Shown piece after piece: positions 506 through 10,017 of a stretch of DNA of 27,387 bases (positions are counted from its first letter, which is position 1; every line of letters begins with the position of its first letter). Position numbers and translations under genes: made by a program. Under the pieces are notes generated by a model, which saw nothing but the letters and a program-made list of their open reading frames with translations, searched no databases and was not told where the DNA came from. The stretch lies in IMG/VR virus record IMGVR_UViG_3300013306_000050, positions 1 through 27,387 of that record; one strand, 5' to 3'. Origin of the DNA: a virus.

Positions 506-1243
506 CTATACGTCTAATGAAACACTTTCTAAGGATGTCACTCTTGACATTAAAAGCTTGATGTCAGCATTTGGAAACATATCAAGCTCAGATTGAATAA
601 AATTCATAATTGCTGGAATTTCTCCATCAGTTGGAACGAAAATGTATTTCACATCGCTCGGGAGAAACTTTAACTTACAGAGTTCCGCTGTTTTTTGGTT
701 GCTAGCCTCAAGTTTCTCATCCGTCTGATATTCTCGAAAATTAAGATAGTCATCGATCTCATCATTTTGCGGTACATATCGCCACTCAGATTCCTGGTAA
801 AAATCTTTTAGTAATGGCTCTCCAGAGATAATCATTCGCCCTTTAGTAGGCTTAGAGTGCGCCAATATATATCTCACGCTCTTTAATCCACTTTGTTTTT
901 CTTTTTCGCCCAAACCTACGACTACCTCTGTAAGAGATCTTATCGCCCCGTGAAGCGGATTATCCCCTGCAAAATAAATAACAGGGTTCAAGTTATTTTT
1001 TGCCCCCCACTCCTTAGTAAGCCCTATACCAAACGATCCGTAAAACCCTACATGCTCTGCGATACGGCTCATAGGTATGTCACAAAAACAAACCATAGGA
1101 AAAGCTATAAAGTCATTTGATTTACGTCCTTGCCATTGCACATCCTCCAAACAGTATCTAGGCCAAAACCCGTCCTTCAATACAGCCTTAAGGATTTCCA
1201 TATTCTTAGTGAAATGAAAAAGGGAAACTGATCGTGGCTGCAT
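506..1243 (-). CDS. AbiGi-like abortive-infection protein
   Basis: This 245-residue soluble protein opens with SLFHFTKNMEILKAVLKDGFWPRYCLED, which matches the start I know for AbiGi-type proteins (Pfam 'putative abortive phage resistance protein AbiGi', PF10899). In lactococcal AbiG, AbiGi works with a second protein, AbiGii, to stop phage development. No AbiGii-like nucleotidyltransferase is present here; the divergent neighbour is instead a PIN-like nuclease. No signal peptide or membrane segment is visible. The start is the first ATG of the open frame (complement of 1241-1243); the upstream Shine-Dalgarno is weak. Base composition is far more AT-rich than the phage genes to the right, indicating separate acquisition. 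Family call fairly good from the N-terminus; function inferred. Confidence 0.7.
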   Translation of the reverse strand: MQPRSVSLFHFTKNMEILKAVLKDGFWPRYCLEDVQWQGRKSNDFIAFPMVCFCDIPMSRIAEHVGFYGSFGIGLTKEWGAKNNLNPVIYFAGDNPLHGAIRSLTEVVVGLGEKEKQSGLKSVRYILAHSKPTKGRMIISGEPLLKDFYQESEWRYVPQNDEIDDYLNFREYQTDEKLEASNQKTAELCKLKFLPSDVKYIFVPTDGEIPAIMNFIQSELDMFPNADIKLLMSRVTSLESVSLDV

Positions 1244-1494: not shown

Positions 1495-1538
1495 GGTGGC
1501 TTGATGCCATACAAATTTTAAAAAAACAAGGATACGTG

Positions 1539-2822
1539 ATGAAAAAACTATTTCCTGGGCACTTTGCAAACTCATCTCAAGATATTGAAAACCTTTGGCA
1601 TGATTGTACGTTTGTTTTAGATGCCAATATTTTACTTAGTTTGTATCGTTATTCTGACTCAACCCGATCAGATCTATTAACAGTATTTGATGCGTTTGCT
1701 AAACGTCTTTGGATTCCTCACCAAGTCGCCCACGAGTATTTAACAAATCGTCTTTTCGTAATCAGTGAGCAAGCTAAATTTTACGACGATGCTATAAAAC
1801 GCATAGATGCCTTAAAAAAATTGCTCGAAAATAATAATCAACACCCATTCGTTGCTCCCGAAACTCTTAACGAATCGAGTGAAATCTTTGAAAAACTCAC
1901 TAGTGAATTATCTGAAAATCGTCTTATTCATGACCGTCGTATAACTCAAGATGAGATCAAAGAACACCTGCTGTCCATCCTCTCAGACAAAGTTGGAGAA
2001 GGTTACGAAAAGGATAAGTTAGAAGAGATAATCTTGGAGGGGAAATCTCGCTATGAAGAAAAAACTCCTCCTGGATTCGGAGACGCTAAAAAGGGTGGAG
2101 ACTCGGCTTTATTTCTTGATAGATGCAAACCGTATGGTGACTACGTTGTGTGGTTACAAATGATGGATTATGCAAAAACTTCTGGGAAGCCAATAATTTT
2201 TGTCACCGCAGATGTGAAAGAAGATTGGTGGACCGTATTTCAAGGTAAAACAGTTGGGCCCCACCCTCAATTGATTCAGGAGTTTTTGACAGTTACAAAC
2301 CATGCCTTTTACATGTATACGCCAGATAAGTTTTTAGAACGCGCAAGCAGCTATTTAGATCAAGCCGCTTCGGAAAAGTCTGTTCAAGAAATAAGAGATT
2401 TACAAAAAGAGGATGAATCAGAGGTCAATATTTTTGATAGAGCAATGAATATTAGTTGGCCGGAAGCCAGGCATAGTAAATCAGCTATGCTCGATTCTCA
2501 CGAATCTCGATCACGTATTGGTCGCTTAGAAGGTGAGCTACCTAATGAATTTGTCGATCTACCTTGGAACAAGCCCGCGCCTAGCCAAAATCCATCGGAG
2601 CGCGCTAATTACTTGGAAAACAAACAAGCACTTATTAGCCAAATCACCACCGCAAAAAACAAGCACTCAGCTTATAATAAGCGTCTGCACGAAATGTCAC
2701 TTGAAGGTAGTTTAGATAGTCACCAAATTCAGTTTATTAAGAGTACGCTCAGAGAGCTAGAGCAATACATCTATTTCAAAGAAACAGAACTTGATGAGTT
2801 ATCGATAATGAGTCGGCATTGA
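1539..2822 (+). CDS. PIN-like domain nuclease (PIN_8 type)
   Basis: This 427-residue protein begins with an N-terminal PIN-like domain. PIN domains are metal-dependent ribonucleases with a cluster of acidic residues. Visible here are VLDANILLSLY (D28), the helix ending PHQVAHEYLTNR (E66), then GDYVVW and IFVTADVKEDWW near residues 198-226, so the acidic set looks complete. The long middle insert and the charged, coil-prone C-terminus (about 290-427) fit the large PIN_8/DUF4935 proteins rather than a small VapC toxin. ATG at 1539 is chosen because AAGGA lies 6 bases upstream; a GTG directly precedes it. The gene is AT-rich, divergent from the AbiGi-like gene and convergent with the integrase. 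The likely role is RNA cleavage in phage defence; this is inference from fold and context. Confidence 0.75.
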   Translation: MKKLFPGHFANSSQDIENLWHDCTFVLDANILLSLYRYSDSTRSDLLTVFDAFAKRLWIPHQVAHEYLTNRLFVISEQAKFYDDAIKRIDALKKLLENNNQHPFVAPETLNESSEIFEKLTSELSENRLIHDRRITQDEIKEHLLSILSDKVGEGYEKDKLEEIILEGKSRYEEKTPPGFGDAKKGGDSALFLDRCKPYGDYVVWLQMMDYAKTSGKPIIFVTADVKEDWWTVFQGKTVGPHPQLIQEFLTVTNHAFYMYTPDKFLERASSYLDQAASEKSVQEIRDLQKEDESEVNIFDRAMNISWPEARHSKSAMLDSHESRSRIGRLEGELPNEFVDLPWNKPAPSQNPSERANYLENKQALISQITTAKNKHSAYNKRLHEMSLEGSLDSHQIQFIKSTLRELEQYIYFKETELDELSIMSRH

Positions 2823-5877: not shown

Positions 5878-6148
5878 GGTTGTTTACCGGGATGGCGGGT
5901 AGATCCAGCCCCAGTTGATCGGCCAGCCAGCGAATGCCAGGTTGTCTGACACGGGTTGACTGGCTGTACTGCATACCGGCGGTCTCGTGATACCAGTTGC
6001 TGTCCTTGACCCGCAGGAACTCGCGATCGCGGGTTGGGAAGGCGGGTAGGTTTCGGTTGTTGAGTAGACCTTTTGCCCGCATAAGGTCGATCAGCTTGGG
6101 CCGAGTGATGCCGAGGTGTTTCGCTGCTTGGGCTAGTGTGCGTTCCAT
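5864..6148 (-). CDS. KilA-C-like DNA-binding phage protein
   Basis: The 94-residue protein MERTLAQAAKHLGITRPKLIDLMRAKGLL... resembles the C-terminal domain of phage antirepressors (KilAC/ANT type). It has a helix-turn-helix (about 5-28), then a DREFLRV...NWYHETAGMQYSQSTRVRQPG segment. In antirepressors this domain follows a separate N-terminal domain; here it stands alone. It probably binds DNA or the repressor in the early lytic programme. GAGGGGA lies just upstream of its ATG and overlaps the stop of the preceding gene. Confidence 0.75.
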   Translation of the reverse strand: MERTLAQAAKHLGITRPKLIDLMRAKGLLNNRNLPAFPTRDREFLRVKDSNWYHETAGMQYSQSTRVRQPGIRWLADQLGLDLPAIPVNNRDVA

Positions 6149-6158
6149 GTCGTCCCCC

Positions 6159-6749
6159 TCAAGCGGCGTGCGCGGCGGGTGTTGCCGCTGCCGCCAGGTG
6201 GTTGATCGACTCGGCCACTTGCTTGTAGATCTCGACGTCGCTGCCGTACACGGTGAAGCATTTGGTGCGCGGCCTTTTCTTGCCGATGCTCATGATGGTG
6301 GTGACACCAGAGCGGGTTTTAGTGCGATGCAAGGCGACGTGGATAGGCAGCTCAAAACCCATGTCGAGGCTCACTACGCCACCGGTACGCACTAGCTCGA
6401 GCACTTGTTGCTTATGCTCGATCTCGAAGCGGGCGTACTGGCGGCCGGCGTGGGGGAGGTTCTGCAGATCGGCTGCGTTACTTGCATCGAAGGGGCCGTT
6501 GACGATCTCTTCGATGAAGTCGGCCAGCTTGAGGTGCATCTTTTTTTCGTTCTTCAAGGTCAGCGTGTGGCGCTCGCTGCCTAGTTCAACGGTGAAAAGG
6601 GTGTCGGATGTGTTGCGTTCAACCTTCAAGCGGAACGAGAGAACCTCGCGCTTAGGTGTCGACCTTAGCGTGTGGTTGAATGTCTCGGTCAGGTTGACCT
6701 GGGCGTTGAGCAGTTGGAGGGTGCGGTTGTCTAGCTTGTACATGCTCAT
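6159..6749 (-). CDS. Conserved-looking early phage protein, function unknown
   Basis: The 196-residue protein begins MSMYKLDNRTLQLLNAQVN and ends in an Ala-rich tail. Mixed beta/alpha composition (REVLSFRLKVERNTSDTLFTVELG; KKRPRTKCFTVYGSDVEIYKQ), with no membrane segment or known motif. It is the second gene of the leftward early operon; its ATG overlaps the stop of the first gene as ATGA, with GGAGGG upstream. I do not recognise a family. Confidence 0.75.
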   Translation of the reverse strand: MSMYKLDNRTLQLLNAQVNLTETFNHTLRSTPKREVLSFRLKVERNTSDTLFTVELGSERHTLTLKNEKKMHLKLADFIEEIVNGPFDASNAADLQNLPHAGRQYARFEIEHKQQVLELVRTGGVVSLDMGFELPIHVALHRTKTRSGVTTIMSIGKKRPRTKCFTVYGSDVEIYKQVAESINHLAAAATPAAHAA

Positions 6750-6922
6750 GCTGCGAACCCTCCACCATTCGGATCGAACGGAGCGGGTGTGGCGCGGACT
6801 TTCACCTTAGGTTTTGTGGTGACAAACGTGCAGCCGCATTCGCGGGCTAGGCGGCGGATTTCGAAGATGCGGAACGGTTCAGCAGCGGCCGGATGGACGT
6901 GCAGGGTGGCTGTGGTGTGCAT
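6746..6922 (-). CDS. Small first gene of the leftward early operon
   Basis: A 58-residue product starting MHTTATLHVHPAAAEPFRIFEIRRLARECGC. The open frame extends to an ATG at 6970, but that codon lies inside an operator, between the -35 and -10 boxes of pL, so it cannot be transcribed from pL. ATG 6922 follows GAGG by about 8 bases and is preferred. No family recognised; basic and Cys-containing (CGC). It ends GGGFAA with an ATGA overlap to the next gene. Confidence 0.65.
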   Translation of the reverse strand: MHTTATLHVHPAAAEPFRIFEIRRLARECGCTFVTTKPKVKVRATPAPFDPNGGGFAA

Positions 6923-6958
6923 GGTTTTGCCTCGCTCTGTGGTGGAAGAGTGAGGCTG

Positions 6959-6986
6959 AAGATAACCCATAAGGTTAATTTTGCAA
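6959..6986 (-). promoter_or_regulatory. Early leftward promoter pL
   Basis: On the minus strand a TTGCAA -35 box (6981-6986) and a TATCTT -10 box (6959-6964) are separated by 16 bases. The operator at 6963-6977 fills most of the spacer. The promoter would drive the operon from 6922 down to the integrase. Its layout matches pR at 8886-8914. Confidence 0.75.
6963..6977. promoter_or_regulatory. Repressor operator OL1 (TAACCCATAAGGTTA)
   Basis: A 15-bp palindrome with half-sites TAACC and GGTTA. It is identical to the operator at 8896-8910 and overlaps the -10 box of pL, so a bound repressor would block the promoter. Confidence 0.85.
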
Positions 6987-6992
6987 GAAAAA

Positions 6993-7007
6993 TAACCTTA
7001 TGGGTGA
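6993..7007. promoter_or_regulatory. Repressor operator OL2 (TAACCTTATGGGTGA)
   Basis: On the minus strand it reads TCACCCATAAGGTTA, one change from OL1. Centre-to-centre distance to OL1 is 30 bp, about three helical turns, which suits cooperative binding of repressor dimers on one face. It lies upstream of the pL -35 box. Confidence 0.8.
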
Positions 7008-7044: not shown

Positions 7045-8148
7045 TTAGTAAAAACGACCACCCCCACTTTCTAGATCAGCTGTTGTTGTGACATGCACTA
7101 GGATATCAAATCTATATTCTCGAATAACCTCTATCATTCGATTTCGAACTTCAGTTGGAGATATTTTCAAATTTCCCAGAACTACAACTAAGTGAAGTGT
7201 GAACTTTTTGTCTTTGAAGGTTCGGCTCAGATTGTGAGCTTTTAGGAGTGTATCTGCGTAGCGTCTTGGATCGAATCGATTAGCAAAAAGTTTTACTTCA
7301 ACTACTTGTATTTCATCTGAAGAATAGTTTGCGGCGTCGAAAATATATTTGACTGTTGAGTTGTGTGGTTTGAAGCTTACGTCTGGCCTGAAGTCTATGT
7401 TAAGCGCTTTAGAAAGCTTGCTGATTGCTAGTTTTTCAGTAAGTGCCACATTGGCCATTAAATTCCTATGTTCGATTTCATAGGGTTCCATTAATGCTAA
7501 AAGTTTTGAATCGTAAGCTGTTGGGTGTGAGGTGTAAGTGTTTTTGATTAGTTTTTCGGTGATGTTTTTTAATCTTGTAGCTTCAGTGAGATGGGCGTCA
7601 TCATGGAGAGGATCTAAATTTTCGTGACTTACTTCAGGGCTTTCTTTAATTTGTTCTGATTGCTTTGGCTCAGTTAGCGGGCGGTCATTTGTTTGAGTCG
7701 ACTGGCCAGGCGCAAATACTTCTACATTCTCGGATGCTTTGGGGTCTAAATTTGATTGGCTCTCAGGCTGATCAGTTGAGGCCTTTCCACTCGTTTGAGT
7801 GTGATTTACGCCCGAGCTCGTCTGCGCTTCTGCATCCGCTTGAACCTCACGGGTTTCATCATCTAGTTTGCTTGTTACTTCTTCCGGAGTCGCTCGCCCA
7901 AACGGATTTACAAAGTTATTTTCATCTTTGTAGTCAGATGGTGCGTATAGAACTCTGTGGTTGAAATTTAAGGTTGCAAAAAACAGTATTATTATAAATG
8001 TCGGGAAGAATATTAGAAATATTATATACAGCCATTGGTTGGGGTTTTCAATGAGTGGCAGTATTGCAACGCCGCTCAGTTCTGCGGCGCCAGCAAATAT
8101 AGAAATTAATGTTAATGGGTTTTTTATATGTTTTGCGCTTTCCGTCAT
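7045..8148 (-). CDS. Two-TM membrane protein with a possible PD-(D/E)XK nuclease-like domain (lysogenic cargo)
   Basis: This 367-residue protein has two N-terminal membrane helices (about 10-32 and 38-60), then LNFNHRVLYAPSDYKDE. A long Ser/Gln/Glu-rich linker follows (about 85-200), then a folded C-terminal domain (about 210-360). In the latter, IFDAANYSS (D271) followed by VVEVKLF (E284, K286), with an upstream helix glutamate (E238), resembles a restriction-endonuclease-like core. The gene lies 40 bases downstream of the repressor gene on the same strand, so it should be transcribed in the lysogen. It is clearly more AT-rich than the surrounding phage genes. Location and timing suggest superinfection exclusion or abortive infection; this is inference. 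Family name not known to me. Confidence 0.7.
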   Translation of the reverse strand: MTESAKHIKNPLTLISIFAGAAELSGVAILPLIENPNQWLYIIFLIFFPTFIIILFFATLNFNHRVLYAPSDYKDENNFVNPFGRATPEEVTSKLDDETREVQADAEAQTSSGVNHTQTSGKASTDQPESQSNLDPKASENVEVFAPGQSTQTNDRPLTEPKQSEQIKESPEVSHENLDPLHDDAHLTEATRLKNITEKLIKNTYTSHPTAYDSKLLALMEPYEIEHRNLMANVALTEKLAISKLSKALNIDFRPDVSFKPHNSTVKYIFDAANYSSDEIQVVEVKLFANRFDPRRYADTLLKAHNLSRTFKDKKFTLHLVVVLGNLKISPTEVRNRMIEVIREYRFDILVHVTTTADLESGGGRFY

Positions 8149-8188: not shown

Positions 8189-8836
8189 TTAAAGATCTGA
8201 AATTTTCCATCTTGCCCTTCCGCAAATCGTCCATTCTTCAGTCATGCGAATTATTCTTTCAGGCCAGTCAGGATTGAGTGCGTACAAAAATTGTTCTCCG
8301 CCTTCCTGTCTCAACTGTTTCAAAGTTGTGGCGTGATCACTGGTGCGTTTAGCAGCCACAAAGTGACCTGGCAGGGCCTCCAGTGCGGGATCTATTACAA
8401 TTTTGTCACCCTCTATAAATCTAGGCTCCATGCTCATTCCTTCGACTCTCAAAATGAATGCCCGAGGACCAACGGGCCCTGGAGCGTCTATCCATTCTTC
8501 AGCGTCACGCGGATCGAAAATAGCATCGGGTTCGCACCAAGCGCCTGCTGCAATTGATCCAATCACTGGTAATTTACGTCCTGTATGGCTGATAAGTGTG
8601 GCATTGCTGAACTCGCCTATGCCATACGGCATGTCTAGGTAGCCATTGTGCAGACTCAATGCCTTTTCTATCTCGCGCGCTATCTGATCTCCAATTCCTT
8701 TTGTTGGATTTTTCCCTCCAAATGCACTGACTTGTGCCGGAGCTTTACCCAGCAGTTCGGCCACGTCGGTCAACCGTAGCTTTCTGTCCGCCAGGATTCG
8801 TCGGAAATTCTGTAAGCGGGTGTCTGAAATTTTCAT
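8189..8836 (-). CDS. CI/LexA-like phage repressor with S24 autocleavage domain
   Basis: The 215-residue protein has an N-terminal helix-turn-helix (about 5-60, LRLTDVAELLGKAPAQVSAFGG) and a C-terminal LexA/S24 peptidase domain. The probable cleavage site is A97-G98 in GSIAAGAW. The serine is S135 in VEGMSMEP and the general-base lysine K173 in TTLKQL; their 38-residue spacing is close to that of LexA. RecA-stimulated self-cleavage would therefore induce the prophage after DNA damage. It should bind the four TAACC-N5-GGTKA operators. The start lies 97 bases from the divergent cro-like gene, with no strong Shine-Dalgarno. Confidence 0.93.
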   Translation of the reverse strand: MKISDTRLQNFRRILADRKLRLTDVAELLGKAPAQVSAFGGKNPTKGIGDQIAREIEKALSLHNGYLDMPYGIGEFSNATLISHTGRKLPVIGSIAAGAWCEPDAIFDPRDAEEWIDAPGPVGPRAFILRVEGMSMEPRFIEGDKIVIDPALEALPGHFVAAKRTSDHATTLKQLRQEGGEQFLYALNPDWPERIIRMTEEWTICGRARWKISDL

Positions 8837-8855: not shown

Positions 8856-8870
8856 TAACCTTTATGGTGA
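8856..8870. promoter_or_regulatory. Repressor operator OR2 (TAACCTTTATGGTGA)
   Basis: Half-sites TAACC and GGTGA are kept with a different 5-base centre. The centre lies 40 bp from that of OR1, about four helical turns, on the repressor-gene side of the intergenic region, where it could autoregulate the repressor. Confidence 0.7.
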
Positions 8871-8885: not shown

Positions 8886-8914
8886 TTGCAAAAAATAACC
8901 CATAAGGTTAAATT
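8886..8914 (+). promoter_or_regulatory. Early rightward promoter pR
   Basis: TTGCAA (8886-8891) and TAAATT (8909-8914), or TTAAAT one base earlier, are spaced 16-17 bases, with operator OR1 between them. It drives the cro-like gene, whose ATG lies 20 bases downstream with GAGAGG before it. Confidence 0.75.
8896..8910. promoter_or_regulatory. Repressor operator OR1 (TAACCCATAAGGTTA)
   Basis: A palindrome identical to OL1, located in the spacer of pR. Two exact copies about 1.9 kb apart, each in the same place within a promoter, are strong evidence of a shared repressor. Confidence 0.85.
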
Positions 8915-9167: not shown

Positions 9168-9498
9168 ATTAGAAAAAGGGCGACCCTAAGGCCGCCCAGT
9201 TCCTCCCGGCACGCACCACCACAGCGCTGTCGGGTCGCGATAAAGATAGGCGGGCACACCACATGCTAACCACCTCTCTTTACCGCGCTTTCCAAGGCAC
9301 GGATGCCTTGGTGTTGCTGCCTTTTCCACCACAGATTGGGCAGCTGTTGCGCCAGGGGTGAACAACGGATTGTTCTCCTCGGCACGGTGCCGGTATCGAT
9401 CCTGAAGATCTAGCCGGCGTTTGGGCCCTTTCAAGCCACGCGGCAAATGTATCACCACTGCATGTCGCGCGGCACTGGCAACCTTAAGGATTAATGCC
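9168..9498. other. Intergenic stretch between cro-like and CII-like genes
   Basis: No convincing gene. A frame on the minus strand (9186-9500, 104 residues) ends YLYRDPTALWWCVPGGTGRP with its stop inside a hairpin. A 32-residue plus-strand frame (9263-9361) also exists. Neither has a clear Shine-Dalgarno. Variants of the 9190-9240 sequence seem familiar from annotations of pseudomonad genomes, which suggests a conserved non-coding or repeated element rather than protein. Confidence 0.4.
9171..9198 (-). terminator. Leftward intrinsic terminator
   Basis: On the minus strand, GGGCGGCC and GGTCGCCC form a stem with one mismatch, closed by a TTAG loop and followed by five T. On the plus strand there is no T-run after the hairpin, so it works for leftward transcripts coming from 9200-9500, opposite to the cro-CII message. 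Confidence 0.6.
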
Positions 9499-10017
9499 AT
9501 GAGCCGAATCGCTCTGAGTTCTGTAGAACGGGCGCAGCGGGAAATCCTGCCGCTCGATTTAGCGCTTTACCATGCTGCCCGGGACTATCCCGGCGGCGCT
9601 GCAGCAATTGCCGCCACCACCGGCAGAAATGCCACCACGCTGCAGCACAAGCTTTCTCCAACCCACCCCAGTCACACGGTGAACATTCAGGAGTTCGGCG
9701 AGATCCTGGAGCTGACCAAGGACCGGCGCATTCTGGATGCAGTTCATGCACTGGTCGGGGATACGACTTGGCAGGAGTTGGCCGAGGCGTATACCAACGA
9801 CATGCCTGAAACCTTGACCACCGGCATTGCTGAGTATTTTCGGCAGGTCGCGGATTTGGCTGATACCTGGGCCAAAAGCATCGGCGACGGTGTAGTGACG
9901 GACCACGAACTGGCCGCGATCCGCCTGCAGGTGTTTCGCGGTATTCAGGGGCTGCTGGGGATGTTCAACCGCGCCACCTACGTTAATCAAACAACGCGGG
10001 GTGTCGACCGTGGCTGA
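9499..10017 (+). CDS. CII-like phage regulatory protein (Phage_CP76 type)
   Basis: The 172-residue protein contains YHAARDYPGGAAAIAATTGRNATTLQHKLSP and NIQEFGEILELTKDRRILDAVHAL. This is the pattern of the phage regulatory protein CII family (PF06892), DNA-binding proteins that influence the lysis-lysogeny choice. Helix-turn-helix at about 22-48. ATG 9499 follows AAGGA by 8 bases; the open frame continues upstream without a usable start. The next gene starts at a GTG that overlaps its end. Confidence 0.85.
   Translation: MSRIALSSVERAQREILPLDLALYHAARDYPGGAAAIAATTGRNATTLQHKLSPTHPSHTVNIQEFGEILELTKDRRILDAVHALVGDTTWQELAEAYTNDMPETLTTGIAEYFRQVADLADTWAKSIGDGVVTDHELAAIRLQVFRGIQGLLGMFNRATYVNQTTRGVDRG

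Follow-up and report, generated by a model that had tools for sequence, protein, structure and literature searches.

A putative membrane-tethered PD-(D/E)XK-like nuclease in the rex position of a lambda-like Pseudomonas prophage and the defence hot-spot in which it lies

The gene at positions 7045–8148 of the window (the whole stretch of viral DNA that was analysed, 27,387 nucleotides) probably encodes a lysogen-expressed, membrane-tethered nuclease that would exclude superinfecting phages. We favour this reading because the gene lies between the repressor and OL and in the repressor direction, because unrelated defence genes can replace it there, and because its product combines a membrane tether with a predicted nuclease fold. 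It would then be a gene of lysogenic conversion (a moron) that takes the place of rex in a lambda-like prophage of Pseudomonas and that is most likely co-transcribed, in distal position, with the repressor. The features of the region are collected in Table 1.

Table 1. Coordinates of the switch region and of the gene under study in the window
Feature	Position	Strand	Basis or remark
S24-type CI repressor	8189..8836	-	Peptidase_S24 E=1.5e-19; ends 40 bp upstream of the 7045–8148 gene
OR-side operator-like palindrome 1	8856..8870	.	
OR-side operator-like palindrome 2	8896..8910	.	
OL-side operator-like palindrome 1	6993..7007	.	
OL-side operator-like palindrome 2	6963..6977	.	
First gene of leftward lytic (pL) operon, phrog_35204; far border of hot-spot	6746..6970	-	
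CII-like activator (Phage_CP76), rightward operon	9451..10017	+	Profile match
Membrane-tethered PD-(D/E)XK-like protein, 367 aa	7045..8148	-	Gene under study
Predicted two-helix membrane hairpin, residues 11–62	7963..8118	-	Model helices 11–32 and 35–62; hydropathy
Juxtamembrane signature NHRVLYAPSDYKDENNF, residues 63–80	7909..7962	-	Most conserved stretch of the family
Disordered acidic linker, residues 113–186	7591..7812	-	Low pLDDT; fastest-evolving part, dN/dS 0.30–0.56
PD-(D/E)XK-like domain, residues 214–360	7069..7509	-	pLDDT 93.9, topology, fold matches
E238 codon, conserved glutamate of first helix	7435..7437	-	Kept in 43/54 relatives
D271 codon, candidate catalytic aspartate	7336..7338	-	Kept in 52/54 relatives
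E284-V285-K286 codons, (D/E)xK motif	7291..7299	-	Motif position and conservation

Domain architecture and predicted nuclease fold

The open reading frame starts with an ATG, which is preceded by GGAG at 10 nt and lies 40 bp from the repressor stop codon. A preliminary description of this DNA had proposed that the product consists of two transmembrane helices, a low-complexity linker and a C-terminal PD-(D/E)XK-like domain with D271 and E284-V-K286. The two helices are borne out by the agreement between the modelled helices and the Kyte-Doolittle peaks, which reach 1.6 and 2.6. Both termini of the hairpin are predicted to be cytoplasmic, judging from the distribution of charges: the lysine, histidine and arginine residues outside the helices are on one side and a short acidic loop is on the other. 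In the full-length AlphaFold2 model the hairpin is followed by a helix at residues 88–112, the linker is disordered, with pLDDT of 40–50 over residues ∼121–180, and order resumes after residue 214.

The C-terminal part (residues 205–367), modelled with AlphaFold2 from an alignment of 38 sequences, gave a mean pLDDT of 93.9 and a pTM of 0.85. Its secondary structure elements follow the order alpha-beta-beta-beta-alpha-beta-alpha-beta, which contains the alpha-beta-beta-beta-alpha-beta core of PD-(D/E)XK proteins (H10-45, E50-55, E64-71, E75-84, H90-106 and E111-120 in the domain model). All of the residues named beforehand were found at their positions and on both expected strands, with D271 on beta2 and E284 and K286 on beta3, while E238 is located in the first helix. 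The model thus returned a PD-(D/E)XK core and not a fold unrelated to restriction endonucleases.

Structural searches with VIA-align placed AF1548 (Z 10.1), PaqCI (9.7), XisH (9.4) and NucS (9.3) at the top, followed in fifth place by the CdiA-CT/CdiI toxin-immunity complex (Z 9.2), and lower down by SfsA, Can2, McrC, BstEII, Card1, BglII and viral cap-snatching endonucleases. Nearly all high-scoring solved structures were restriction-endonuclease-like folds, and the cA3/cA4-activated nucleases Can2, Card1 and Cdn1 were among the fold matches. Models that have no clear match typically reach Z 7–8 on this scale; a Z of 10 with consistent superfamily content exceeds this range, if only modestly. 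Foldseek hits to solved structures were weak by E-value (best 4.5e-3), as is usual for a fold this divergent, and a search of PDB sequences with the C-terminal profile produced chance-like matches only (best E 0.0047, entry C2HR4_8r).

In the profile-based set of 54 non-redundant relatives that possess the C-terminal domain, the aspartate is kept in 52, the glutamate or aspartate of the second position in 51 and the lysine or arginine in 45; the full D-(E/D)-(K/R) set is intact in 45 relatives. Judging from this conservation across the relatives, the D/E/K motif is not a product of chance. By predicted fold and motif the protein is PD-(D/E)XK-like, and it would be catalytically active. It shares with members of the superfamily such as AF1548, NucS, XisH, PaqCI and McrC both the fold and the E-D-ExK arrangement of residues, but differs from them in that a disordered tether links its domain with a conserved hairpin in the membrane, and in that the sequence has no Pfam family match.

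The repressor–pL interval as a defence hot-spot

The location assigned to the gene in the preliminary description, between the repressor and pL and in the repressor direction, is confirmed by the OR and OL palindromes that bracket it. The four operator-like palindromes are near-perfect copies of TAACC-N5-GGTTA, for which 10 matches were observed in the window (both strands counted) against 0.57 in whole-window shuffles. Since the palindromes flank the repressor and the 7045–8148 gene, the OL–OR interval contains exactly these two genes, as it contains cI-rexA-rexB in lambda. The CII-like activator encoded in the rightward operon confirms that this is a lambda-like switch region. No terminator-like site was found between the repressor and the gene.

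The same arrangement was encountered in relatives. An S24 repressor is located immediately upstream and on the same strand in all nine IMG/VR Pseudomonas relatives, and directly upstream in all five Pseudomonas genomes with an intact nuclease motif in the genome scan, although some of the latter represent the same prophages as the IMG/VR set. OL/OR-like palindromes flank the gene in most relatives checked; for L010, L012 and L106 the search setting used gave none.

To what extent does base composition mark the gene as cargo, as had been claimed? The GC content of the gene is indeed low (about 39–43%, compared to about 60% for the phage body). However, the repressor is also AT-richer (46–49%), and GC content alone is therefore weak evidence. 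Stronger evidence for cargo status comes from relatives with an empty site and from the dozens of alternative cargoes described below.

Eighty viral loci with a related repressor were retrieved, and in about 70 related Pseudomonas prophages (L122–L194 in our listing) the interval is either empty or filled with cargo. In L171, L173, L184 and L192 only 45–47 bp separate the repressor stop codon from the first pL gene, and the stop codon runs into both OL palindromes; these are natural empty sites. The other loci carry 0.6–3.2 kb of cargo in the interval, falling into 61 clusters of ORFs, some of which are spurious. The family of the 7045–8148 gene is the largest cargo cluster, with eight complete members and a truncated one (L194). 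Its members are always in the repressor orientation, whereas the cargo is on the opposite strand in approximately half of the other loci.

Many of the alternative cargoes match known defence models: PD-T7-3 (E=2.3e-33), AbiTii (1.8e-17), the PARIS-like AriB (7.5e-11), reverse transcriptases of the retron and DRT kinds (type VI retron-like RT, 1.6e-74; UG17 RT, 6.2e-162), SIR2-type PDC-S25 (2.0e-26), NsnA/PD-T4-2 (2.1e-70), PDC-M01A/PtuA (5.8e-104) and PDC-S59 (3.4e-70). Pfam matches add SLATT, putAbiC, HEPN, GmrSD, TIR and C5-methylase domains. With its conserved borders, variable interior and empty sites, the repressor–pL interval is a defence hot-spot; its enrichment in defence genes was scored by matches to known models, with no null set for comparison. 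The defence role suggested earlier for the 7045–8148 product gains support from the defence nature of the alternative cargoes at the same slot. A large number of the cargo clusters match no known model; they are candidate new systems.

Defence hot-spots with exchangeable anti-phage genes are known from P2, P4 and Vibrio K139-like prophages (PMC9122126). The Pseudomonas slot resembles them in having a fixed place in the prophage, conserved border genes and swappable anti-phage genes, but in these lambda-like prophages it extends from the stop codon of the repressor to OL/pL. No earlier description of a repressor–pL hot-spot was found in the literature searched, which mostly excludes subscription journals. 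A second AT-rich cargo patch is present at the left end of the window, outside the integrase gene, where an AbiGi-like protein (506–1243, minus strand; PADLOC E=2.3e-49) and a PIN_8-domain protein (1536–2822, plus strand; Pfam E=1.5e-60) are encoded.

The protein family and its membrane module

Relatives of the 7045–8148 product are present in phages, plasmids, IMG/VR contigs and genomes. No family covering them was found in Pfam or NCBIfam, and six relatives, the window copy included, gave no profile match at E≤1 in the PADLOC library of 2023. They are covered by phrog_26238 (F116 gp41, function unknown), which belongs to the same family by its N-terminal module (E=1.1e-25). Weak matches to an endolysin PHROG and to a spore YkwD model map to the linker and the following helix and were discounted. 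No close DNA relatives of the window were found among deposited phages.

The family members of phages F116 and H66 differ from the 7045–8148 product in their degenerate active site and their genomic place. In both, the aspartate and the lysine are missing, and in seven other relatives the set is incomplete; catalysis is therefore not required in every relative. The copies in F116, H66 and RHEph21 are not inside a repressor operon. Those of F116 (gp41, L002 5001–5912) and H66 (L008 3001–3900), with the degenerate sites FSG..VEVF and VEAF, are located between portal and structural genes, and a terminator is annotated 3' of the H66 copy. The Thiomicrorhabdus relative (L056 3286–6861) looks, by eye, like a cassette that follows an integron-integrase-like gene and adjoins two other restriction-endonuclease-like genes, while the end of the Vibrio plasmid relative (L001) looks, also by eye, like attC read-through.

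In the closest pair of relatives (L011/L015), most other pairs being saturated at synonymous sites, dN/dS was 0.025 for the membrane part, 0.54 for the linker and 0.20 for the nuclease domain. Purifying selection thus acts on both ends of the protein, with far less constraint on the tether.

The most conserved part of the family is formed by the N-terminal ∼80 residues, which end in LYAPSDYKDExxF. Across many phyla this membrane module is combined with different cytosolic domains, being fused to wHTH-like, TPR-like, receiver-like and pYEATS domains. The pYEATS fusion is encoded in L118 at 5956–6723 (Pfam E=1.3e-9, above the cut-off). The module also occurs alone, as a protein of ∼102 aa. In nearly all of the 31 loci concerned a small beta-helix-like gene lies directly 3' of the module gene, often with overlapping codons, and in L051 the module and the beta-helix-like part are in one ORF. 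Module-only proteins are encoded in L022–L050, L088, L098, L101, L004 and L096; in the inspected loci their genes have the lysis cassette on one side and the terminase genes on the other, and the beta-helix-like partner is characterized by the motif ..C.F.NC..GPAANT..FENIKK. A match to the module was found in 170 of the 299 Pseudomonas species genomes, mostly in a chromosomal gene with another C-terminus (L106 and L206–L231 are such genes). A response-regulator gene adjoins it in both inspected examples (L106 and L214), and argG is next to it in L106, the inspected example that extends far enough.

The hairpin surpasses the nuclease domain in conservation and is found by itself as well as joined to other domains. 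It may thus do more than anchor the protein, and its occurrence in these settings argues for a functional unit. It is conceivable, and we put it forward tentatively, that the module ending in LYAPSDYxDExxF represents an unrecognised membrane platform, found alike in phages, integrons and plasmids and in core genes of the chromosome across many phyla, on which nuclease, wHTH, pYEATS, TPR and receiver-like domains, or a beta-helix partner in trans, are exchanged. Such a platform might dock each domain at one specific site of the inner membrane, and would in the present case station the nuclease where phage DNA enters.

Since the hairpin looks like a functional unit, the main rival explanation is Rex-like abortive infection within a single chain, in which the C-terminal domain would sense phage DNA by binding it, without cutting, and the hairpin would be an effector that disturbs the membrane. 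The conservation of the hairpin, its occurrence as a separate ∼102-aa protein with a beta-helix-like partner or together with wHTH, pYEATS, TPR or receiver-like domains, and the loss of catalytic residues in F116 and H66 would all be in line with this model, as would the rex position, given that defence of the RexAB type relies on a DNA-binding protein and a membrane protein (PMC12894663). On the other hand, conservation within the domain is highest at the catalytic residues, and these are intact in 45 of the 54 relatives, which is unexpected if DNA binding alone mattered; moreover, a hairpin of two helices is small for an effector, though oligomers are possible. We therefore consider this explanation rather unlikely, albeit worth keeping in view.

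Proposed function and relation to SNIPE and Rex

According to the reading that we prefer, the hairpin would place the product in the inner membrane with both ends in the cytoplasm, and the long disordered tether would hold the nuclease domain, with E238, D271, E284 and K286, close beneath the membrane. The nuclease would cut the DNA of a superinfecting phage during entry, and the membrane tether would keep it away from the host chromosome.

Entering phage DNA is suggested as the specific target by analogy with SNIPE (PD-lambda-1), a membrane-bound nuclease. SNIPE cleaves phage DNA in the course of injection and turns toxic once its membrane part is removed (PMC13190303). Like SNIPE, the 7045–8148 product is encoded by a single gene, has an N-terminal-proximal anchor in the inner membrane and a C-terminal nuclease domain in the cytoplasm (an orientation predicted here from charges), and is proposed to act on phage DNA as it enters. 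SNIPE, however, comprises a single membrane helix, DUF4041 and a nuclease of the GIY-YIG type, its N-terminus being variable and its nuclease conserved (PMC13190303), whereas in the 7045–8148 product a two-helix module that is conserved is combined with a PD-(D/E)XK domain. Neither GIY-YIG nor DUF4041 gave a Pfam match at E≤1, and since these two defining domains are absent the product is not a member of SNIPE. No earlier description of a two-helix PD-(D/E)XK exclusion protein was found in the literature searched, mostly without subscription journals.

The position of the gene, between CI and OL/pL and in the repressor direction, is that of the rex genes. RexABpp of a P. putida prophage shows that genes so placed behind a CI repressor are able to protect Pseudomonas (PMC12894663). 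With lambda RexAB and P. putida RexABpp the gene shares, apart from its place downstream of CI, the combination of a nucleic-acid-type domain with a membrane protein and a presumable role in lysogen-expressed exclusion (PMC12894663, PMC11077077). It differs from them in being one gene and not two, in having two helices and not four, and in that the domain is a restriction-endonuclease-like core. The gene occupies the Rex position; at the sequence level, its product gave no Pfam match at E≤1 to RexA or RexB.

A membrane-tethered defence nuclease might also act on host nucleic acid, causing abortive infection, or on RNA. The fold matches to cA3/cA4-activated nucleases (Can2, Card1 and Cdn1) and to cap-snatching RNA endonucleases would fit such a target, and several of the alternative cargoes of the hot-spot are abortive (AbiTii, SIR2, retron). 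Nevertheless, the protein carries no activating or ligand domain, the slot contains no second gene, and a membrane tether is better suited to a spatially restricted target, all of which makes this alternative improbable. Least plausible of all is a regulator of lysogeny or lysis, or a host-fitness gene, with no role in defence: hairpin-only relatives just 3' of the lysis cassette in enterobacterial phages, the Pseudomonas gene that encodes this hairpin beside argG, at a core locus of the chromosome, and the copies of F116 and H66 between portal and structural genes might be cited in its favour, but presence or absence of the gene and its swapping for unrelated defence genes in otherwise similar prophages are unlike a lysogeny regulator.

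Compared with the preliminary description, the analysis adds a widespread family, a conserved membrane module, a hot-spot and the loss of catalytic residues in some relatives (F116 and H66). The repressor–pL interval of Pseudomonas prophages offers a rich, bounded and easily mined anti-phage slot, for which the natural empty sites can serve as controls, and the conserved hairpin raises a testable question concerning its docking partner in the inner membrane. If the proposed exclusion by a tethered nuclease is true, the 7045–8148 product would be a second, independently built case of the SNIPE strategy, in which self is told from non-self by place, namely the membrane, and this strategy would have been built with a nuclease fold and a highly conserved membrane module that are both unrelated to those of SNIPE.
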